DNA of 26,182 nt. It comes from a virus. Of the stretch, positions 6,568-26,182 are shown in pieces. Position 1 is the first letter of the stretch. Each line of letters opens with the position of its first letter. The position numbers and the translations under genes were made by a program. Where the stretch lies: the IMG/VR virus record IMGVR_UViG_3300044633_000912, positions 1 through 26,182 of that record; one strand, 5' to 3'. Under the pieces are notes generated by a model. The model did no database searches. It had not been told where the DNA came from and worked only from the letters and a program-made list of their open reading frames with translations.

Positions 6568-7263
6568 CTAGCTGTCTTTGTTGAGCTGCCTGTCAATGTG
6601 GTGCCTCTCGTCAAGCCAGTAGGTCTTTTGGTGCGGCAGGATAGCCGCGGTGTTTGCGTAGATCGGAAAGCCCAGTTGTCTAATCCTGCGGCAAAAAAGC
6701 AGATCTTCACTTATCCACTCGCCGTTGATGGGCCCGTCCCAAAACCAGCACCAATCGGTCCCTTGATTTGGGTCTGCAGCTTCGCGCATTTTTTCAAGCA
6801 CGCTGCGATGAATAAGCATGCACCCAGTGCCGCAAGCGTCAACCTCGAAGATCGAGTTGCGTTGGTAGTCGTTGATAGGTGCAAAGCCTTTGGGTGTGTC
6901 TTTGAATATTAGTGGCACGGGCACAGGGTAAAGGTTTTTATTGGCGTCCCAAGCCCCGAAGTACAGGCCCGCTATTACTGGTCGCTCTTTGTCGTGTGCA
7001 GTGTTGATAAGTTGGTCGAATGCTTGCAACGACAGTTGTTCGTCAGCGTCGATCAGCAAAAGCCAATCGGAGTTGGTGTCGTCGAGAAAAGACTTAACTA
7101 CTCGGTTGCGTAGCTTGCTAAGCAGACCCGAGCCTTTGGTACGCACAAACGGACCAAGCCTAGAAGACCGCGATTGTGCGAGTTGAATCATGCGAAAGGC
7201 GAAATCGCCGTTCACCATGCCAGGGTCACAGACCCCGATAGATATTTTGTGGCTTGCTTTCAT
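6568..7263 (-). CDS. GT-A fold glycosyltransferase, in the head cassette
   Basis: The protein is 231 aa. It starts at ATG 7263, preceded by GGGGGAG. The sequence shows a GT-A-like fold: LLLIDADE (Asp72-x-Asp74, a metal-binding DxD) and, near the C-terminus, ISEDLLFCRRIRQLG, which resembles the acidic acceptor-side motif of family-2-type enzymes. A Cys-containing segment (ACGTGCMLIHRSV) also occurs in such transferases. It sits between the major capsid gene and the connector, an unusual place, and so may glycosylate a capsid or tail protein; this target is inferred from position only. No membrane segment is visible, so it should act in the cytosol. Confidence 0.8.
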   Translation of the reverse strand: MKASHKISIGVCDPGMVNGDFAFRMIQLAQSRSSRLGPFVRTKGSGLLSKLRNRVVKSFLDDTNSDWLLLIDADEQLSLQAFDQLINTAHDKERPVIAGLYFGAWDANKNLYPVPVPLIFKDTPKGFAPINDYQRNSIFEVDACGTGCMLIHRSVLEKMREAADPNQGTDWCWFWDGPINGEWISEDLLFCRRIRQLGFPIYANTAAILPHQKTYWLDERHHIDRQLNKDS

Positions 7264-11551: not shown

Positions 11552-12613
11552 CTAGTTGCCTTTCGTAATAAGCGCTTTTTTGTAAAAGGCCATGTTCTCT
11601 TGGAGTCTGTCAATCCACGGCGCAAATGCCGCGGCTTTTTTGCCGTGTTCAATCGCTTCGCTTGGTTTGTTCATGTTGTGGCATGCTATCGCAATCAGGT
11701 CGTGAGGCAAGTAGCCCCAAGCGTCTGACTCGTTCAGGTACTCAAGCGGTTGCTCGGTTATTCTCAGCGCTGCGTGTGCGGTTGCGTAGCAATCCAGCCA
11801 CAAGCTCTTGGAATAGTAATGCTGCGCGAGATCGACTCTAGCCTCTCGGCTGCCTGGAGACTCTGCGATTGCTTTTAAGAGCCAAGACTCTCTTTCAGCC
11901 TCTTCCATCTTTGCGAGGTACCGCATTGAAGCTGCTCGCTCGGGTTTCCACTGCGCTCTAGGTAGGCCTAAGTGGCGTTTAAACTCTTGAATCGCTTCAG
12001 GCCATTTGTTGTGAAAAAACAACTCTCTTGCGTTGTAAAAACAGTTGCGGTCGTCTGCTGGGTCTTCAAGCACCGACTGCGCCAGCAGTGCAGAGTATTG
12101 ACTTCTAGATTTCGTATCATCAGGGTGGTGGTGAATCTCGAGCTTGGTCCAATGCTGGACCTCACTGCCCGTGCAGGTTAAGACTTCGTGCACTGGGTGC
12201 TTCCACCTGTAATTGCGCCTTGAGTGGACTTTGTCTCCACCATAGACCAAGCCAGGAGAACCGTCAGGATTCCAGGACCAAGTGTATTTGTACCTAGGTC
12301 GTGTCACTTGCGGGTCCAATGACTCCAGCTCTTGGCGCCAGCCAGGCTGTAGTTCCTCGTCCATGTCAAGTGCTATGCAGTAGTCAACGTCAAGCGGGAG
12401 TGCCGCAAGCGCTGCATTCCTTGCGTCATCAAAGCGCCAAGGCCGCACGGCGATCTTGATAACGTTGATGCCGAGATTCTCGGCGTACTTAATTGTCAGA
12501 TCTGTGGAACCAGTGTCTGCTATGAGCAGGTAGTCAGCCTCTTTTGCGCTCTTATGCCAACGTTCGACAAAGGCTTGTTCGTTAAGTGCGATTGTGTAAA
12601 CTGCTATTTTCAT
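11552..12613 (-). CDS. Family-2-type glycosyltransferase
   Basis: The protein is 353 aa. The N-terminus reads MKIAVYTIALNE, followed by IADTGSTDLT (nucleotide-sugar binding) and DMDEE at 83-87 (DxD metal site), the hallmarks of GT2 enzymes of the 'SPBc2-like/tetratricopeptide' sort. The C-terminal half is helical and repeat-like (AARELFFHNKWPEAIQEF and similar pairs), resembling TPR helices. The start is preceded by GGGGGACC. It sits between the fibre genes and the portal and may glycosylate the Ser/Thr-rich fibres or the head; the target is inferred. It is not closely similar to the second glycosyltransferase at 6568-7263. Confidence 0.85.
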   Translation of the reverse strand: MKIAVYTIALNEQAFVERWHKSAKEADYLLIADTGSTDLTIKYAENLGINVIKIAVRPWRFDDARNAALAALPLDVDYCIALDMDEELQPGWRQELESLDPQVTRPRYKYTWSWNPDGSPGLVYGGDKVHSRRNYRWKHPVHEVLTCTGSEVQHWTKLEIHHHPDDTKSRSQYSALLAQSVLEDPADDRNCFYNARELFFHNKWPEAIQEFKRHLGLPRAQWKPERAASMRYLAKMEEAERESWLLKAIAESPGSREARVDLAQHYYSKSLWLDCYATAHAALRITEQPLEYLNESDAWGYLPHDLIAIACHNMNKPSEAIEHGKKAAAFAPWIDRLQENMAFYKKALITKGN

Positions 12614-12801: not shown

Positions 12802-13153
12802 TGGTACGAATCCAGGTGCTTTCTTCTTCGAACCACGCGTAATCGTTTCCATCTGTTGGGTAGTTAATGGGAGCCCGCCAAAGGCAAGTCTCCTCGTTTA
12901 AAACCCAACTTTCATACGGTTTTGGATACAAGAAAGCATCTCTATCAGGGTCATAAGTGCCAGTAGTGGTCGCAAAGTTGTACCTAAAACTGCCGTTGTA
13001 TGAAGTTTGTTTCCAGTTAGTGTGCCCGCCTGACCATTCGGTCAAAAACTCAACCCCTGAAGCTTCTTCATTTTTAGGGTCAAGAGCAGCATTAGCCACT
13101 ACAGCCACTTCAATAACATTGTTGTTTTCGTCTAATTTTGCAAAATGCGCCAT
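12794..13153 (-). CDS. Small conserved fibre-associated protein
   Basis: The protein is 119 aa. It has the layout of a protein common beside tail fibres in aquatic phages: MAHFAKLDENN at the start, WKQTSYNG in the middle and AFLYPKPYESWVLNEETCLW towards the end. It is aromatic-rich without membrane segments or catalytic motifs. TAATG coupling to the glycine-rich gene upstream and ATGAATAA coupling downstream place it in the appendage operon. The exact role is unknown; a virion or fibre accessory role is likely. Confidence 0.65.
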   Translation of the reverse strand: MAHFAKLDENNNVIEVAVVANAALDPKNEEASGVEFLTEWSGGHTNWKQTSYNGSFRYNFATTTGTYDPDRDAFLYPKPYESWVLNEETCLWRAPINYPTDGNDYAWFEEESTWIRTNE

Positions 13154-14037
13154 TATAATGTAATGCTCCCGTTCCCAGTAAACTTGTAGATGCGGTATCC
13201 GCCTACTGTGGTGACAGTTGGAGAACCAGTTGTTGAAGCCGCTGCAGCAAAAGAATCTGGGTAACGAAGTATAACAACGCCCGAACCGCCAATTGTGGCA
13301 GCTCCACCTGTTTGGCCATACGCTCCACCTGCGCCACCGCCAGTATTCGCTGTACCGTTTGTATGCGTATCTGAGTTGTGATTTGAACCAACGCCGCCAC
13401 CACCAAGTCCAGCTACGCCTTTAAAGTATGTAAAACCATATTGCCAGTTTCCTCGCACTGCAGCACCACCACCACCAGCATAATAAGTCGCTGTGCCAGT
13501 GATTGAGGATTGGATTCCGTTGCCGCCGCTACCAGTGTAGTACCCTGTAGGGCTACAGCCAGGAAGGCCTGCTGCTCCCGCACCGCCACCGCCGCCACCA
13601 CCCGCATCAGGGTCTCCAGTTAGGTTAAGACCGCCCGCATTTCCTTGGCTGGGAGATGTGGAAGGCGTGTTACCCGCTCCACCAGCAGCAGTTGGGTAGC
13701 ACCCACCACCACCTGAACCGCCAGCAGTTGCTGGGTCTCCATTGGAAAAGGTTGAACCGTATCCGCCACCGTTGGCTGTAATTGTAGCCAAACCTGAGCC
13801 AGCAATAGAAGAATTGCCACCATTGGCGGCGTTTCCACCGTTACCAACTGTGATGGTGTAAGTTATGCCTCTTGCTGTTGAAAAGTTAGACTCTCTTAGG
13901 CCGCCTGCTCCGCTACCACCAGAACCTGTGCAACAGTTAGTCGCGCCAGGAGAACCGCCGCCACCAGCGACTACTAAATAGTCAAGTGGCACAGTTCTTG
14001 GGTAGTTTTGGCTAGCTACAATCCCGATGATTGGCAT
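13153..14037 (-). CDS. Glycine-rich fibre/adhesin protein
   Basis: The protein is 294 aa. After a short N-terminal strand (about 1-28, DYLVVAGGGG), a long region is made of Gly-rich repeats (GGGG, GGSG, GNGG; about residues 25-265). The C-terminus (about 265-294) is a beta segment with GGYRIYKFTGNGSITL, the ending typical of glycine-rich adhesin domains of phage fibres that contact host polysaccharides. Two CC residues (NCCTG) near position 35 are odd. It is coupled to its downstream neighbour by TAATG. It probably forms a polyglycine-II-type tip. Confidence 0.78.
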   Translation of the reverse strand: MPIIGIVASQNYPRTVPLDYLVVAGGGGSPGATNCCTGSGGSGAGGLRESNFSTARGITYTITVGNGGNAANGGNSSIAGSGLATITANGGGYGSTFSNGDPATAGGSGGGGCYPTAAGGAGNTPSTSPSQGNAGGLNLTGDPDAGGGGGGGAGAAGLPGCSPTGYYTGSGGNGIQSSITGTATYYAGGGGAAVRGNWQYGFTYFKGVAGLGGGGVGSNHNSDTHTNGTANTGGGAGGAYGQTGGAATIGGSGVVILRYPDSFAAAASTTGSPTVTTVGGYRIYKFTGNGSITL

Positions 14038-14038
14038 G

Positions 14039-14731
14039 TTAGGCGATGTCTCCCACGATAGTAAATGTGTTTGAAGCTGTGCAAATCACTGTACAGGCTG
14101 AATACTGAGCTCTTGTTTTCGGAGCTGAAGCAGTTGCGCCAGTTGATGTGATTGTGACGCCCGCGCCTTGTGCGAATGTAAGTTGGCCAGCGCCAGTCTG
14201 TTGCACATGGATTTGATCGTTTGCGCTAAACACGGAAGGTGGCACTGTGATTGTCGCGGTTGCGCTCACTGTAACAAGTTCGTTTAGATCTCCAGCGGCA
14301 AGTGTGTAGTTGCCAGCTTGTGGGCTAAAACCAACTAAAAGGCCTGGGCCTGTTGGACCAGTTGCACCTGTAGGACCTGTGACAGTCGAAGCTGCGCCAG
14401 TTGGGCCAGTTGGACCTGTCGGACCTGTTGGGCCTGTAACGGTTGAAGCGTCGCCAGTTGCACCAGTGGGACCTGTTGGGCCTGTAACGGTAGAAGCCGC
14501 ACCAGTAGCACCAGTTGGACCAGTGACGGTTGAAGCTGCGCCTGTTGGGCCAGTTGGTCCAGTTGCGCCAGCTGTGTAAGCGTAGGCCAATGAGTTCCAA
14601 GCAGTAGTGCCGTCACCGATCTTAAACTTAGCGGTGTCAGTCTCGAGTCCGAGTTCACCTGCAGCAAGGGTTGGGTTATTGGCTGTCCAGTTTGCTGCCG
14701 TGTCTCGGCGATTTTGGAGTCTTGCTGTCAT
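14039..14731 (-). CDS. Collagen-like tail fibre protein, short
   Basis: The protein is 230 aa. Residues 1-52 form a phage fibre N-terminal domain of the hyaluronidase / major-tropism type ([34 protein letters not shown]). Residues about 55-135 are Gly-X-Y collagen-like repeats, with [13 protein letters not shown] units. The C-terminal 95 residues form a beta-rich head ([20 protein letters not shown]). Collagen-like repeats in phages form trimeric rods. It shares repeat units with the larger fibre gene just upstream. Prolyl hydroxylation is not expected, so stability should come from Pro/Thr content. Confidence 0.82.
14341..14577. repeat. Gly-X-Y coding repeat tract of the short fibre
   Basis: The DNA is a set of degenerate 9-, 18- and 45-base repeats that read GPTG and GAASTVT units on the minus strand. 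They mirror the repeats at 14901-15486 and 15878-16530, so recombination between the fibre genes is possible. Plus-strand open frames over this tract are by-products of the repeats. Confidence 0.75.
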
Positions 14732-14753
14732 GTGATTATCCCTTGTCTTTAGG

Positions 14754-16938
<2,185 letters not shown>

Positions 16939-19784: not shown

Positions 19785-20372
19785 TCACTCATTGGTCGGC
19801 GTGTCGAGCATTAAGCCCAACAACGGCCACTCTTTTTGGGTCCATGCGTGCCCTTTCCCTTTTGTGCAGTTGCAATCCTCAACAGCGCATCTGCAGTTGT
19901 GATTTCTGCAGAGCAGAAGCCCTTGGTCCAGCTTGATTACTAAGCTCTTTGCACAATGTGGACACCTTAGTCTTGCCGTCAAAGGCCTCTGCTCCAATCC
20001 TAACAGGATTTTCACCTGAGTGTGTCGCTTAGCAATAGAAAGGCTGATCTCTTCAATCAGTTTGGTCCGATTTGATGTCGGCCAGCTTTGTATCGTGTCG
20101 GCAACCCAAAACAACGACCTTACTGGGTCGCTGTTGGGTACCACGCCCTGTCCTCTTTCGAGTCTCAGTTCGATCTCCCACGTAAGTATAGCAGACCGAA
20201 TCCCGAGAATCGCGTCAAGCACATCGACACGCACTGGCAACCGCGGGCCTGGGACTGAGCGGCTGGTGCGCTCGCCCGTTCGCCCAGGCTCCAACTCGAC
20301 CCCCAGCTGGTCGTACCAAGTGGCAAGGTCCCTTAGCTCTTGAGCTGTTTCAATGAGTGGCTTATCAGACAC
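19785..20372 (-). CDS. Zinc-ribbon protein, unknown function
   Basis: The protein is 195 aa from GTG 20372, with GGGAG 6 bases upstream; the GTG overlaps the dUTPase stop. Residues 1-125 are helical, with no known domain (IETAQELRDLATWYDQL at the start). The C-terminal 60 residues hold a Cys-rich ribbon: CPHC, then CRNHNCRC and CNC. Such proteins are frequent hypothetical proteins of actinobacterial phages in the early region. A nucleic-acid-binding role is plausible but unproven. Confidence 0.7.
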   Translation of the reverse strand: MSDKPLIETAQELRDLATWYDQLGVELEPGRTGERTSRSVPGPRLPVRVDVLDAILGIRSAILTWEIELRLERGQGVVPNSDPVRSLFWVADTIQSWPTSNRTKLIEEISLSIAKRHTQVKILLGLEQRPLTARLRCPHCAKSLVIKLDQGLLLCRNHNCRCAVEDCNCTKGKGHAWTQKEWPLLGLMLDTPTNE

Positions 20373-20796
20373 CTGAACTCCCAAAACCAGCAGCGCCACG
20401 GTTGGTCTTGGGAAGTTCTGCCACCTCTTGTGCCTGGACATCGAGGGAAGCGTTGTGAATAAGTATATACTGAACCAAGCGCATGCCAGGTTCTACTTTG
20501 ACAGGTTTGTCAGTCATGTTCCACACACCAGCAAAAAGTGGACCAGTGTAGCCGCAATCAATGACACCCTGTGCCACCATGAGGCCGTGCTTGCGTAAAG
20601 TGCTAGAGCGAGCTGTTAACAAGCCCCACGTGCCCTCGGGCACTTTGATTGCGACTCCTAGAGGGATATCGACAAAAGTGCTCGGCTCGATCACCATTTC
20701 GGCGTCGCAGTACAAGTCGAAGCCAGCGTCGTCGTTATAGGCCTTCGTCGGTGCTTGTCCAGTGGAAGTCAGTAGTTGGTACAATAGGGCTGCCAT
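20365..20796 (-). CDS. dut: dUTP diphosphatase
   Basis: The protein is 143 aa from ATG 20796 (GGAG 5 bases before); the longer upstream start is disfavoured. All five dUTPase motifs are visible: AYNDDAGFDLY (20-29), ARSSTLRKHGL (62-72), GVIDCGYTG (77-85), PGMRLVQYI (103-111) and RGAAGFGSSG (133-142). It makes trimers that hydrolyse dUTP to dUMP and pyrophosphate, keeping uracil out of phage DNA and feeding dTMP synthesis. Its start lies inside the deoxyribosyltransferase-like gene (62-base overlap). It belongs to the PurZ cluster. Confidence 0.93.
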   Translation of the reverse strand: MAALLYQLLTSTGQAPTKAYNDDAGFDLYCDAEMVIEPSTFVDIPLGVAIKVPEGTWGLLTARSSTLRKHGLMVAQGVIDCGYTGPLFAGVWNMTDKPVKVEPGMRLVQYILIHNASLDVQAQEVAELPKTNRGAAGFGSSGV

Positions 20797-21172
20797 ATTC
20801 ACTCCATTCTTTGATTGATTTGTAGGTGGGGATTTCAAGTGCTGCAAGGCCGACACTGTTCATGCCGACGTCTCCAACCACGACAACTGGGGTTTCAAGG
20901 TCGTGAGCATGTTGGATTTCAAGGACAGTGCCAATGGTTAGCACGCCTTTCACTAAGACTGCGACAACGAGATCAGCCTGTTCCAGTACAAGCAAGTTGG
21001 CCCAGTGCACAAACTCGTCAGGCACTAGGTCACTCGGTGCTTGCCAAGCGCCAGCTGGGTCATAAACCCACACGCACTCTTGCTCTTTGAAGTGCTTTTT
21101 GATCTCGTCTTTAATGCGATTGACTTTCGCTCCTTCATCAAAGTCAATCGGTGCGGCTAGGTAGACTATCAC
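20735..21172 (-). CDS. Nucleoside 2-deoxyribosyltransferase-like protein
   Basis: The protein is 145 aa from GTG 21172, which overlaps the MazG-like stop (GTGA), preceded by GGGGCGGG. The sequence shows the family pattern: a first strand ending IVYLAAPIDF (Tyr4), then ADLVVAVLVKG and GTVLEIQHAH with Glu85, which corresponds to the catalytic glutamate of the family, followed by TPVVVVGD. The family breaks or transfers N-glycosidic bonds of (deoxy)nucleosides, or hydrolyses deoxynucleotide bonds (Rcl/DNPH1). In a PurZ cluster it could salvage or remove purine deoxynucleotides. The substrate is not known. Confidence 0.75.
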   Translation of the reverse strand: MIVYLAAPIDFDEGAKVNRIKDEIKKHFKEQECVWVYDPAGAWQAPSDLVPDEFVHWANLLVLEQADLVVAVLVKGVLTIGTVLEIQHAHDLETPVVVVGDVGMNSVGLAALEIPTYKSIKEWSEYGSPIVPTTDFHWTSTDEGL

Positions 21173-21564
21173 TCGACAAACCCGCCCCAACCGCCGTTTT
21201 CACGTGCGTACTGCGCCATTTTGGTGTAAATAGCAATGTCGTGCCATGTGTCAGATGATGGGCTGCGACCATCAGCATAGCCACCGATCAGACGTGCGAC
21301 CTTGCCCAGCACATAAAACGCTATGCCTAGCTCGTCGTCTGTCACGTTGGTCGGCTTGCCAATCATTTGACTCAGAGCAAAGCCGATGACTTTCAGATCT
21401 GCGCTGCCATACTCAACGGCTTTTGGTATGACAGAGTCTAACTCGAACTTTGTCTCTTCAAGCCACCAGTTTGCAAGACTTTGCACGGTCGGTGCGTCTT
21501 TTGTGGGCGTTTCTTTCCTAAAGGCAGCTGCCACATCTTCCCACTCATTAAAGCCGCTTCTCAT
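21169..21564 (-). CDS. MazG-like nucleotide pyrophosphohydrolase, candidate MazZ
   Basis: The protein is 131 aa. The start ATG at 21564 overlaps the PurZ stop (ATGA). The middle reads WWLEETKFELDSV, KAVEYGSADLKVIG, then DDELGIAFYVLGKVARL and DTWHDIAIYTKMA. The acidic helices (Glu36, Glu37, Glu41; Glu51; Asp56; Glu78) match the all-alpha MazG-like fold rather than its exact ExxE...ExxD spacing. In Z-genome phages MazZ turns dGTP into dGMP, the substrate of PurZ. The direct coupling to PurZ is the best argument for this role. It could also be a generic phage MazG-like protein. Confidence 0.6.
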   Translation of the reverse strand: MRSGFNEWEDVAAAFRKETPTKDAPTVQSLANWWLEETKFELDSVIPKAVEYGSADLKVIGFALSQMIGKPTNVTDDELGIAFYVLGKVARLIGGYADGRSPSSDTWHDIAIYTKMAQYARENGGWGGFVE

Positions 21565-22595
21565 TTGACCCACGCCATCGTTGAAGGTCCAGTGCCTACC
21601 AGTCTGACTGGTGCGTTCACTGCACTTTCGATGTCTGTGATGTAGCGTTGTTGCTCGTCAGACAAGATGTCTATTCCAGTCTGATCTTTCAGCTCAGGAA
21701 AGATGTAATCGAACATGGTAAGTGCGATTTTGACGGTTGGAGCGCCACCGTTTGCAATAACAGCGTCGCGAACTAGCTTGCTGTCAAAGTGCCCGACTCT
21801 GCGAATCTTTTGAGTTACGGTCGTGCGCTCTGCCTCAAGTCCTAGCTGTTCCCAGCTGGTTTCGTTCTCGAGTGGCCCTGAATTGCCAGCAACACGGATT
21901 GGGTAGGTGCGGGCTGTGACCCAGATGTCAAAGACATCAACTGCGCGGTCCCACGGGCTAACACCAGCTTGCGACAAGAAGTCCAAGGCTCTGCAGTCTT
22001 GGCTTGTGCAGAATGGGTACAGACCTGCGTGCAGTCCAAGGCCGTAGCCTTGTGTGCCCTCGATTAGAGCAGTGCCGCCTCTTTGTAGGTGCTCGCGAAT
22101 AACTTGTGAAGTATCTACGCCACCACCAAATAGAGAAGCCTTGCGCATGATGCGGTCAGCACGTGAAGCGCCGATGCCTTTGCTGGTTGAACCGATTCGG
22201 GCTTGAATGCCGTCACTGGTCTCGATATCGTGGTGGCGAGGCTCCAAGATTGTGGCTTGGTCGTCCACGATAATGCGTGAGCTGGCTTGGTAGCCCGCTT
22301 TGTCGAGATCTGAAAGCTCTCTATTAAAGACTTCCATATCGATCTCAGAACCCGCTGCGATGATTAGGTCGCTTTCGGGTGCAGTCACTGCGTTGACTGG
22401 GATTGAGCGAAGTCGCCATGCGTATGACTCCTCGCCGTCGGGGCCTTTGCCGATAACGGTGTGCCCTGCGTTTGGTCCTGCCACTCTGATGCCCATAAAC
22501 GGTGCCTCAGATGTTGCGGAAAGGTAGCCTGCCACGGCGCCCTTCCCTTCACTGCCATACTGACCGCCGACTACGGCGATAAGACGTCCTGCCAT
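21561..22595 (-). CDS. purZ: PurZ-type (2-amino)adenylosuccinate synthetase
   Basis: The protein is 344 aa, about 85 residues shorter than bacterial PurA. Its P-loop-like start is GGQYGSEGKG (residues 10-19): Ser15 stands where PurA has the catalytic Asp (GDEGKG), as described for phage PurZ. NAGHT (His45), SKGIGASRADR (139-148), EGTQGYGLGLHAG (179-191), YPFCTSQDC and KIRRVGHFD (263-271) follow; the loop after EGTQG differs from PurA's IDHGTYP region. PurZ converts dGMP with aspartate to 2-aminodeoxyadenylosuccinate, the first step to dZTP; the host PurB does the next. The start is preceded by GGGGGAA. The 4-base overlap with the MazG-like gene implies coupling. Confidence 0.85.
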   Translation of the reverse strand: MAGRLIAVVGGQYGSEGKGAVAGYLSATSEAPFMGIRVAGPNAGHTVIGKGPDGEESYAWRLRSIPVNAVTAPESDLIIAAGSEIDMEVFNRELSDLDKAGYQASSRIIVDDQATILEPRHHDIETSDGIQARIGSTSKGIGASRADRIMRKASLFGGGVDTSQVIREHLQRGGTALIEGTQGYGLGLHAGLYPFCTSQDCRALDFLSQAGVSPWDRAVDVFDIWVTARTYPIRVAGNSGPLENETSWEQLGLEAERTTVTQKIRRVGHFDSKLVRDAVIANGGAPTVKIALTMFDYIFPELKDQTGIDILSDEQQRYITDIESAVNAPVRLVGTGPSTMAWVK

Positions 22596-22917: not shown

Positions 22918-25119
22918 TTATCCTGCATCGGGTTCACCATCATCACTGCTGACCGACTTCACCGACCGCCCCCCCTTATAGGGGGGGGCGAAGTCGGTCA
23001 AGTTTCGGTCGCCTCTTGCCCCTACTTGACCGATACCCTCGCGGTCAAGGTCGGTCAAGTCGGTCAAGTTAAAGGGAGAAGGCGCCCCTAGCACGAAGGG
23101 CTTCAGGTGCTTGAAGTAGCGACCCTGCCCCTGGCTCCTGACACTCAGGAAGCCCTGTCCCTCGAGCTGAGCAAGCGCCTTCTTGATTTGGTCGGTGCCG
23201 CCGTCAATGACCTGCACGACCTGATTGGTGGATAACTCTGCGCCGTGCTTCTCCATGAACTCGGAGATCTTGCGCATCAAATACTCATGTGGGGTGAAAC
23301 CGACCTGCCCACCCACAATCGAGATCTCAATTCGGTTGTTAGCTTGCGAGATCAGGTCAACGTGGCCGACATAAGAAGCCTCTTGGCTAATACCGCGAAC
23401 GAAGCCTGGGCGGTCTTTGGTGATTTTAAGGTTGAGCTTGCCGTTGGAACCGCGACCAAAAGGCATCGAGACATCGACCGAGATAGCAACACCGTCAATA
23501 TCGGCACGCTTTGCCTGTGCGCCGATTGCGTAGTTGCCTCGGTTGTCTTTGGATTTGGTGACGTGGTCAATGGTCAAGACAGCCGCACCCCACAAACGGA
23601 GCGGGCGCAAGACCACCTGGCTGAATTGAGTGGCGTCTTTATTCTTTTCAAGGTCAAGGCCCAGCAGGTTCATGGCGGCATTGACGCCGTCCATCACAAT
23701 CAGATCGGGCTTGAAGTCGCGAATCGAGCCGAGCAGTGCCTGCTGGGCGATTTCGTTGTAAGCACCATCTGGGTTGGCGTATTTAAAGCGCTCAAACTGC
23801 TCCCGCATGACACCCAGCGCCTTCAAGCGGCCGCGAATGCCTCGCTTTGAGTCCTCAAAATCAATATAAAAGACCCTGTTGCCCTGCACCAGCTGTTGAC
23901 GCACTGCTTCCAGCGCCACCCAAGTCTTGCCTGACTCAGACTCTCCGAATATGGCGTTGATTTTGCCGCTGTACAGCAAGCACTGCCCGTCTGTACGGTA
24001 GAGAACAGTTGGGCCAGCCTCGGTCTCGTCCTCATCATACTCAATCGCTCTCGGTAGCCAGCTGGTGTCGGGCTCTGTCACAGGCTCTGCGAATGGCTCA
24101 GGCTCGGGCGCTTCGAGGAGCTGTGAAATGTCAATGGGCTGCAGGGCACTTGAACTGCCACTGCCGAAGCCCTTCGCGGCCAGCGCTGACGCTGCCTTAT
24201 GGAAGTCGCCACCGTGCTCCAGTAGCGTATAAACCGCGAACTTAGAATAACCGCGCTCTGCTTCAAAGATAGTGCTAGTGCTAAAGACAAAGAGCAGATC
24301 TGAGCCTTCATAGTTGGTGGTGGCGCTGATGCCTTCACTCTTGCCTGGACGACACCAAGCGGTGGTCTGCCCCTTTGAGAATACCTTCGTCCAACCCAGT
24401 GGCAGCAAGATCTCGTCCCAAGTCGTCTTTGCGTTGTAGTCGTCGCCTGGCAGTGTCGAGTTCGCGTCCCGAGGCCTTTCTGTGACCTCTGAAGCTACCA
24501 CCGACGCCTTTGGAAGTTGGTCGAAATATCTAAATAAGGAATGGAGACTTTCGCGCTCGCCGACGCTGATAGTCGGGATTGTCTCAATCGAGCCCGAAAT
24601 CAAAGACCAAGAACCACCTGACGGGTGACAAGACCCGCTGCTGGGGGCTGCAACCACGAAGCCACCTTCGCCGCGGGTCTCGGCCAGCACATCAACGCCG
24701 TCGCCTGAAGCGGGGCGCCTAGCTAACTTTGTATTGCCTGGGACTTCGCCATCTATGCGGTAGAACCAGTGCAGACCGCCGCTCGGGGTCATTTCGCAGT
24801 AGCCTTCGTTTAGCCGTTGCCAAAGTTCGCCAAGACCAGTTTCGATTGCCATGTCTTTGATTTCGGTGTGAATGCCGTCAGCCACAGCGCGACCTTCGAC
24901 TTCGAGCATTTCGAGATTGCCTGAGATCTTGCCCGTGATAATGCCGACGCCTTTGGCATCTTTGAACCAAGCCTGAAGCTCTTCAACGGTTGGCAGCTTG
25001 TGCTGGTACTCTTTCCAAGCGCCAATGCCAGGGCGTTTCGAGCCGTCAGCCATAACTGGCACGACTGAACAGCCAGCTGCCGCGAATCTAAGCGCTGCTG
25101 TTAGCACCTCTAAGGACAT
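22918..25119 (-). CDS. Primase-polymerase / helicase fusion (replication)
   Basis: The protein is 733 aa. Residues 1-200 form a Prim-Pol domain: AAAGCSVVPVMADGSKRPG, GVGIITGKISGNLEMLEVEG (residues 57-76), a SGGLHWFYR motif (113-121) and GVDVLAETRGEGGFVVAAPS. The usual DxD metal motif reads ExE here (LEVEG). Residues about 380-600 form a RecA/RepA-type ATPase: Walker A GESESGKT (392-399), Walker B LIVMDG (473-478) and IDHVTKS (517-523). Residues 605-670 look like a winged helix. It should prime and unwind at replication forks. The start ATG at 25119 has GGGGGGTGG upstream. The 3' end carries direct and inverted repeats. Confidence 0.9.
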   Translation of the reverse strand: MSLEVLTAALRFAAAGCSVVPVMADGSKRPGIGAWKEYQHKLPTVEELQAWFKDAKGVGIITGKISGNLEMLEVEGRAVADGIHTEIKDMAIETGLGELWQRLNEGYCEMTPSGGLHWFYRIDGEVPGNTKLARRPASGDGVDVLAETRGEGGFVVAAPSSGSCHPSGGSWSLISGSIETIPTISVGERESLHSLFRYFDQLPKASVVASEVTERPRDANSTLPGDDYNAKTTWDEILLPLGWTKVFSKGQTTAWCRPGKSEGISATTNYEGSDLLFVFSTSTIFEAERGYSKFAVYTLLEHGGDFHKAASALAAKGFGSGSSSALQPIDISQLLEAPEPEPFAEPVTEPDTSWLPRAIEYDEDETEAGPTVLYRTDGQCLLYSGKINAIFGESESGKTWVALEAVRQQLVQGNRVFYIDFEDSKRGIRGRLKALGVMREQFERFKYANPDGAYNEIAQQALLGSIRDFKPDLIVMDGVNAAMNLLGLDLEKNKDATQFSQVVLRPLRLWGAAVLTIDHVTKSKDNRGNYAIGAQAKRADIDGVAISVDVSMPFGRGSNGKLNLKITKDRPGFVRGISQEASYVGHVDLISQANNRIEISIVGGQVGFTPHEYLMRKISEFMEKHGAELSTNQVVQVIDGGTDQIKKALAQLEGQGFLSVRSQGQGRYFKHLKPFVLGAPSPFNLTDLTDLDREGIGQVGARGDRNLTDFAPPYKGGRSVKSVSSDDGEPDAG
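22950..23070. repeat. Iteron-like direct repeats and nested hairpins at the primase 3' end
   Basis: AAGTCGGTCAAGTT occurs at 22991-23004 and again at 23057-23070. The core GGTCAAG occurs four times (22996, 23043, 23053, 23062) and CTTGACCG once in inverted form (23024-23031). TGACCGACTT (22950-22959) pairs with AAGTCGGTCA (22991-23000), and within it CGCCCCCCC (22967-22975) pairs with GGGGGGGCG (22982-22990) over a 6-base loop. All lie in the last codons of the gene and encode the LTDLTDLDR / NLTDF segment. A replication origin or a late terminator is possible. Confidence 0.6.
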
Positions 25120-25700: not shown

Positions 25701-25804
25701 TATTCCCCTGCTTTCTGTTGGTTGGTGTTGGTGGTGGGTTCCTCTTCAGCAGACTCGAGCATCTCTTTGATGATGTCGTTGATGGTTTTCTCAGGCAGTG
25801 TCAC
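25700..25804 (-). CDS. Overlapping short ORF, 34 aa
   Basis: The frame runs from GTG at 25804 to TAA at 25702-25700. AAGGG lies 7 bases upstream of the GTG. It overlaps the nuclease 3' end by 14 bases and its stop overlaps the next ATG (TAATG), so it bridges the two genes without a gap. The peptide is acidic, with a possible helix (EKTINDIIKEMLESAEEE) and a polar Asn/Thr/Gln tail. No homologue is recognised. It could be a real micropeptide or a coupling device for translation of the next gene. Confidence 0.5.
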   Translation of the reverse strand: MTLPEKTINDIIKEMLESAEEEPTTNTNQQKAGE

Positions 25805-26182
25805 CTGGGCACCCTTCTACGAGAGACTTACTGAATGGTTTGAAGTATGGACACCAAGCACAAAGCCTGTCGGGCTCTGCGGGTATTTGACTCCAAATCT
25901 CGGGGTTGGCTTCGACATCTGCCGCGGCCAGTAGGGCATGAATCGAGTCAAGGCGCCCCAAAGCGTTGAGCGCGACTTGCTCGTCGTAATCTTGTAAGAC
26001 CATGACCATGTCTGTAAGCGAGCCTGACGTTGGTAGGTAGCAGAGTGCCACTTTTTTGACATCAGCGCCTTGCTGAGCGAGGCCGTAGGCGTAAAGTTGA
26101 ACTTGAATGATATGCTGGGCATCAGCCCCAAACCTGCGGTACTTGTCCAGCTTGCTCGCGCCTGTCGTTTTCCAGTCGAGCA
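25791..26182 (-). CDS. Cas4/RecB-like PD-(D/E)XK nuclease, C-terminal part
   Basis: The gene enters from beyond the right edge in frame; about 130 codons are visible and it stops at 25793-25791. The fragment shows LDWKTTGASK (the D-x-K part of the PD-(D/E)XK active site), then QVQLYAYGLAQQG (QhxxY motif) and a C-terminal CAWC...GC Cys cluster. With a first Cys outside the window this would complete a Cas4-type [4Fe-4S] site. The family has 5'-3' exonuclease activity and acts in phage recombination and replication. It stands upstream of the replication genes. Confidence 0.82.
   Translation of the reverse strand, partial: LDWKTTGASKLDKYRRFGADAQHIIQVQLYAYGLAQQGADVKKVALCYLPTSGSLTDMVMVLQDYDEQVALNALGRLDSIHALLAAADVEANPEIWSQIPAEPDRLCAWCPYFKPFSKSLVEGCPGDTA

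Follow-up and report, generated by a model that had tools for sequence, protein, structure and literature searches.

In the DNA of some phages, 2-aminoadenine (Z) takes the place of adenine, and two of the usual partners of Z synthesis are DatZ, a dATP-destroying enzyme, and DpoZ, a dedicated DNA polymerase. The locus described here raises the question of whether a phage can carry the genes for such a replacement with neither partner. The window, i.e. the whole stretch of DNA analysed, is an entire public record, a virus fragment of 26,182 bases. An initial annotation had read it as a probable Z phage synthesizing dZTP, from a PurZ-type synthetase overlapping a MazG-like gene, and had suggested that DatZ and DpoZ may lie past base 26182. 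The features of the window and of related contigs are located in Table 1.

Table 1. Positions of the features discussed in the text (window coordinates unless a locus is named).
Feature	Position	Strand	Length	Basis or remark
PurZ0 (succino-2-amino-deoxyadenylate synthetase)	22595..21561	(-)	344 aa	NF038379, PHROG 1211, 7vf6, PurZ0 clade, Ser at PurA Asp13 position
P2, unnamed PurZ0-linked all-alpha protein	21169..21564	(-)	131 aa	from ATG in ATGA overlap; ORF open to GTG 21573
DmtZ, NDT-family protein (predicted dAMP hydrolase / deoxyribose-5-phosphate transferase)	21172..20735	(-)	145 aa	GTG start overlaps P2 stop
DutZ-type dUTPase-fold protein	20796..20365	(-)	143 aa from ATG	PF00692 85.6 bits; ORF open to 20856
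Prim-Pol (AEP) / RecA-like helicase	22918..25119	(-)	733 aa	PF09250 52 bits, PF13481 40.8 bits
PD-(D/E)XK nuclease	25791..26182	(-)		cut by window end; sibling gene G002 16341-17075 matches PF12705
Family 2 glycosyltransferase	11552-12613			PF00535
Glycosyltransferase-like gene	6568-7263			by eye; no Pfam match
Glycine-rich domain protein	13153-14037			PF21722
Collagen-like repeat genes	14039-16592			long GPTG/GATG repeats
DUF6378 protein, Ochrobactrum phage gp31	L155:1475-1975			beside purZ
Prim-Pol frame of G011	L057:5044-7245			one in-frame stop
Nine PolA-less PurZ0-linked contigs	L119, L121-L123, L125-L127, L129, L130
Three-gene cellular module, examples	L171:3902-8084, L164:3947-7846, L209:3882-8143

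Identity of the synthetase

The reading frame and motifs that had drawn attention to the synthetase are present as described: the short 344-aa protein carries GGQYGSEGKG and EGTQGYGLGLHAG, Ser replaces the catalytic Asp13 of PurA, and Ser15 is invariant in a 13-row alignment of PurZ0 proteins. The protein scored 341.9 bits with the NCBIfam model NF038379 (succino-amino-deoxyadenylate synthase PurZ), which exceeds the curated cut-off of 300, and 163.2 bits with the PurA model TIGR00184, whose cut-off is 395.55; scores with PurA models are all far under threshold. PHROG 1211 ('2-aminooxy adenylosuccinate synthetase') was matched with E=8.6e-79, and the best match in a sequence comparison with the PDB was 7vf6, the PurZ0 of Gordonia phage Archimedes (Poubanne 2026, PMC12884076). 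A tblastn search of 50,697 phage records with the window PurZ returned matches in 215; in a spread listing, these matches separated cleanly into actinobacteriophages, with identities of 39-54%, and other phages, among them those of Vibrio and Acinetobacter, which did not exceed about 31%. Compared with its siblings, purZ displays a dN/dS of 0.05-0.07, indicating purifying selection.

In a maximum-likelihood tree of 49 proteins, which included seven cultured PurZ0, four PurZ and two PurA rows as well as chromosomal homologues, the window protein grouped with its relatives and with every cultured PurZ0 row in a single clade (25 rows, support 100/99), which excluded the PurZ and PurA rows and the chromosomal homologues. 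This placement identifies the window protein as PurZ0 rather than a phiVC8-type PurZ and, together with the curated model scores, rules out a PurA identity. By analogy with characterised homologues, the enzyme would use dGMP rather than IMP.

The genes directly behind purZ

The overlap of the purZ stop with the ATG of the next gene, reported initially as ATGA, is real (21564..21561) and sets the product of that gene, here termed P2, at 131 aa, the mechanical list of reading frames starting it at GTG 21573. The order PurZ-P2-DmtZ-DutZ was retrieved in 41 of 43 related contigs, all originating from one scan, the two exceptions being cut by contig ends. Values of dN/dS between 0.04 and 0.15 indicate purifying selection on PurZ, P2, DmtZ, DutZ and Prim-Pol. 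The identification of purZ, the conserved gene order and the purifying selection are far beyond chance.

PurZ0 phages use DutZ and DmtZ in place of DatZ: DutZ turns dATP and dGTP into dNMP, and DmtZ converts dAMP to adenine and moves deoxyribose-5-phosphate to Z; the chemistry of DutZ, DmtZ and PurZ0 was measured in Ghobes and Wayne, and Arthrobacter PurZ0 phages employ DUF5664 as an additional pool enzyme (PMC12884076). The matches of the window dUTPase above 47% identity are PurZ0 phages, other phages standing at about 40% or less (identity ranking, spread listing). Its PF00692 match, this ranking and its linkage point to a DutZ-type enzyme that would hydrolyse dATP and dGTP. The NDT-family protein reaches 30.1 bits with PF05014, just above the cut-off of 28.8, and its identity to characterised DmtZ is low (30-35%). 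Its phage matches come from Gordonia and Arthrobacter only and coincide with, or adjoin, genes that carry a dUTPase or NDT annotation. All of the Ghobes DmtZ residues Y6, D12, P57, N77, G99 and E103 are kept in the window protein, as in 46 of 46 sequences, and the column aligned to the Trp124 lid of the second Ghobes subunit holds Ser in 43 of 46 rows, in a region where the alignment is unsure. We identify this protein as a DmtZ, predicted to act on dAMP with transfer to Z.

The nature of P2 required a closer comparison. Members of its family were found in 65 viral contigs and 31 phage records, and purZ lies directly upstream of P2 in every inspected contig reaching that far. The family is not confined to the window lineage, as it also occurs in Gordonia, Microbacterium, Streptomyces, Curtobacterium and Micrococcus phages. 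The 'MazG-like' label of this neighbour has weak support and is not established. P2 might be a true MazG-superfamily enzyme, equivalent to MazZ and yielding dGMP from dGTP; its AF2 model is indeed all-alpha (pLDDT 81.6, pTM 0.68), and in a second look at PDB folds, where the rows covering the domain include 2a3q (Z 5.2 over 76 residues), 4qgp (4.9), 2q5z (4.6) and DR2231 (about 4), entries of the MazG fold recur. Moreover, the same slot behind purZ is occupied in Wayne by DUF5664, a dATP/dGTP hydrolase. However, the MazG-type entries at Z 4-5 stand among unrelated helical rows, helical bundles often reach a Z of about 5, and Foldseek of the model against the PDB returned nothing below E 1. The sequence profile of P2 gave chance matches only against the PDB (E 0.27 and up), no Pfam or NCBIfam family matched, the MazG, PRA-PH and DUF5664 Pfam families included, and an assignment to DUF5664 (PF18909 / Wayne gp51) was rejected with an hhalign probability of 0.1%. 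The metal-binding motif ExxE...ExxD of MazG is absent from P2, which has no ExxE or ExxD pair; its invariant acidic residues are E54, E81, D108 and D112, and E44 is nearly invariant.

The nearest outside relatives lie elsewhere, which also argues against a MazG enzyme. Among the BFVD viral models, DUF6378 and Nmad1 proteins come next after P2's own family (ranks 8-11 and more, E 0.07 and up), and phrog_474 matched P2 weakly (E=9e-4). The threshold of Pfam DUF6378 was not reached by P2, and a search of the viral contigs with the Ochrobactrum protein found no DUF6378 relatives, so that the link is carried by the weak PHROG match and the fold ranks; we consider it a weak tie. We regard a true MazG identity of P2 as a possibility of rather low probability. 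From its position and fold class, P2 is a probable purine dNTP pyrophosphohydrolase. It is to be noted that the PHROG label 'phosphofructokinase' (phrog_474, phrog_1167) matches the DUF6378 protein of the Ochrobactrum phage and looks like a misnomer.

DatZ, DpoZ and the copying of the genome

Two siblings of the window are terminally redundant and were for this reason taken as closed: G002, with an exact terminal repeat of 99 bp, about 33.98 kb long and about 86% identical to the window in nucleotides, and G011, with a 123 bp repeat and about 32.06 kb long. By comparison with G002, the window lacks about 8 kb. Genes for tail and lysis functions are located there, along with a nuclease gene and one for a PurB-like lyase; the lyase is also present in the other window-group contigs spanning this region. 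DatZ (PF12917 YfbR, PF01966 HD) was absent from the window, from both closed siblings and from the remaining relatives covered by a search that detected both positive controls, phiVC8 and the Ochrobactrum phage. Likewise, YfbR/DatZ, HD, DnaE and DUF5664 (PF18909) were absent in all eight window-group records tested, with the controls detected, and a family A polymerase or DpoZ (PF00476) was absent in 15 of 15 window-group records. The closed siblings thus exclude that DatZ or DpoZ lies just past the window end. This absence had been proposed as grounds for rejecting a Z phage, an argument that fits the PurZ branch; because the present branch is PurZ0 with DutZ and DmtZ directly downstream, the lack of DatZ does not refute the reading.

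The same PF00476 search was applied to 20 other PurZ0-linked records reached via P2 and detected PolA in 11 and none in nine (G017, G019-G021, G023-G025, G027 and G028, 27-45 kb). Prim-Pol and PurB-like genes are present in those PolA-less contigs that were looked at; G019 carries Prim-Pol and G020, which has a 42-bp terminal repeat, a Prim-Pol homologue.

The only polymerase-like gene in the window and in the closed sibling is the Prim-Pol/helicase, and the PF09250 domain is present in 8 of 8 window-group records tested. AEP motif I of the window protein reads ExE, not DxD, which renders its polymerase activity unsure. The ExE is also found in the Prim-Pol of Arthrobacter phage Peas, in the region of which no purZ is annotated, and an adaptation of this motif to Z is thereby ruled out. 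The Prim-Pol frame of G011 is interrupted by one in-frame stop, which may be either genuine or a sequencing error.

The gene set was compared with the most similar ones known. Gordonia phages Ghobes and Archimedes (PMC12884076) share with the window PurZ0 followed by a P2-family protein, a separate DmtZ and a DutZ, and at other places in their genomes they encode a PurB-like lyase and Prim-Pol; they possess a DNA polymerase I (DpoZ-1) and genomes of about 45 kb, whereas the window group has no PolA, measures about 32-35 kb and keeps its four cassette genes directly adjacent. The closest cultured PurZ0 (51-54% identity) and the closest annotated phage PurB-like lyases (about 39%) belong to Streptomyces phages Hiyaa, Galactica and Keanu, whose genomes, unlike those of the window group, reach 81-83 kb; in Hiyaa a DNA polymerase I is annotated and the P2 domain is the end of a longer protein. 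Arthrobacter phage Wayne resembles the window in having PurZ0, DmtZ-DutZ and, immediately after purZ, a small gene for nucleotide processing, but its DUF5664 is not detectably related to P2, its DmtZ is fused to DutZ, and PolA is present. Cyanophage S-2L, compared through the published descriptions, is like the window group in that PrimPol is its sole polymerase-like gene, with no DpoZ (PMC8065100, PMC8342488); it differs by a PurZ of the other branch, DatZ and MazZ in place of PurZ0, DutZ, DmtZ and P2, and by the subfamily and motif I of its PrimPol.

Among the terminase matches, those to actinobacteriophages lead (Streptomyces, Arthrobacter and Gordonia, with Mycobacterium in number), so that an actinobacterial host is likely for this aquatic phage. 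Two genes amid the structural genes, a family 2 glycosyltransferase and a glycosyltransferase-like gene, might possibly glycosylate the virion, and the collagen-like repeat genes with the adjoining glycine-rich domain protein (13153-16592) are probably tail fibres.

A predicted route to Z-DNA

What was observed here is the identity and order of the genes, their active-site residues and the absence of DatZ and DpoZ; the enzymatic steps proposed below are borrowed from characterised homologues. DutZ, and probably P2 too, would yield dGMP from dGTP and dAMP from dATP by hydrolysis. PurZ0 would join dGMP and aspartate into N6-succino-2-amino-dAMP, from which the PurB-like lyase, whose gene lies outside the window in the missing stretch of about 8 kb, would release dZMP, and host kinases would make dZTP. 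DmtZ would destroy dAMP, freeing adenine, and could hand the deoxyribose-5-phosphate to free Z base, producing extra dZMP. The net effect would be a pool drained of dATP and filled with dZTP. Since there is no Z-selective family A polymerase, discrimination against A would have to take place in this pool, through its ratio. Replication might fall to the phage Prim-Pol, a situation known from S-2L; more likely, the Prim-Pol/helicase would start the host replisome, which would then copy the genome.

We consider it likely, with good confidence, that an actinobacteriophage here carries a Z cassette of the PurZ0 type. The phage itself very probably has Z-DNA and belongs to a PurZ0 lineage devoid of DpoZ. 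The Z-phage reading proposed at the outset, with synthesis of dZTP, is thus probably correct, with a different set of partners. The curated PurZ model, the PurZ0 clade, the DmtZ residues, the DutZ ranking, the gene order, the selection and the PurB-like lyase argue for it, as would the precedent of S-2L, a Z phage that lacks DpoZ and has a non-selective PrimPol (PMC8065100). Against it count the missing DpoZ and DatZ, the polymerase annotated beside Prim-Pol in 7 of 7 cultured PurZ0 genomes looked at, and, on the sequence side, the ExE of Prim-Pol, the low identity of DmtZ and its unmatched Trp124 lid.

These same observations bear on the alternatives. It could be that dZTP is made and adenine replaced only in part, giving a mixed A/Z genome, because DpoZ is missing and the polymerase also accepts dATP; the 15 PolA-less window-group records would fit, as would a Prim-Pol type common to non-Z actinophages. 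Yet two predicted enzymes draining dATP and dAMP are kept under purifying selection, and S-2L attains full replacement with a PrimPol that takes both A and Z, once DatZ has removed dATP (PMC8065100), a role that DutZ and DmtZ could fill here; we judge a mixed genome rather unlikely. A viral PurA boosting ordinary dATP/ATP synthesis for a genome with normal adenine is very improbable: PurA shares fold and Pfam family with PurZ, and both DatZ and DpoZ are missing, but the catalytic Asp is replaced by Ser, model scores and tree exclude PurA, and linked enzymes draining purine dNTPs would be senseless for such a phage.

Homologues were also encountered outside recognized phages. A contig of a La Plata Verrucomicrobia MAG (L158) carries a phage-type PurZ0 with P2, DmtZ, DutZ and PurB, and is likely a phage contig binned into the MAG rather than a host gene. 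Chromosomal Ser-type PurA/PurZ homologues (cellular contigs L161-L237) belong to a conserved module of three genes, encoding a protein of about 690 aa with HhH, RNase_H_2, DUF429 and P-loop nucleotide-kinase-like parts, the synthetase, and a dCTP-deaminase/dUTPase-like protein with a C-terminal extension; both flanking genes are present at 57 of 80 loci, across many phyla. As the genome contig scan pattern required GSE or GST.KGIGA, the Ser of these matches is not an independent result. A single literature search on the module found no paper; the three genes might make up a cellular Z-nucleotide pathway or, alternatively, serve in defence.

The PurZ0 cassette with DutZ and DmtZ was already known (PMC12884076), and what is new is a PurZ0 lineage without DpoZ. 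We propose, tentatively and with somewhat less than even confidence, that Z-DNA is made without a Z-selective polymerase in two or more uncultivated PurZ0 phage lineages. These would depend solely on rewriting the nucleotide pool with DutZ, DmtZ and P2 as a new purine dNTP pyrophosphohydrolase, and would leave the incorporation of Z to Prim-Pol or the host replisome, an independent PurZ0 counterpart of the S-2L strategy. P2, a small and conserved predicted enzyme tied to purZ0, is an obvious target. The Z-DNA of phages would be extended to a recurrent lineage of uncultivated phages (the 43 related contigs), in which Z synthesis and the Z-selective polymerase, reported to travel together in PurZ0 phages, are separated. 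If these phages truly carry Z-DNA, an ordinary polymerase would suffice once the pool has been rewritten, which would bear on the minimal machinery for running a cell on a ZTGC alphabet.
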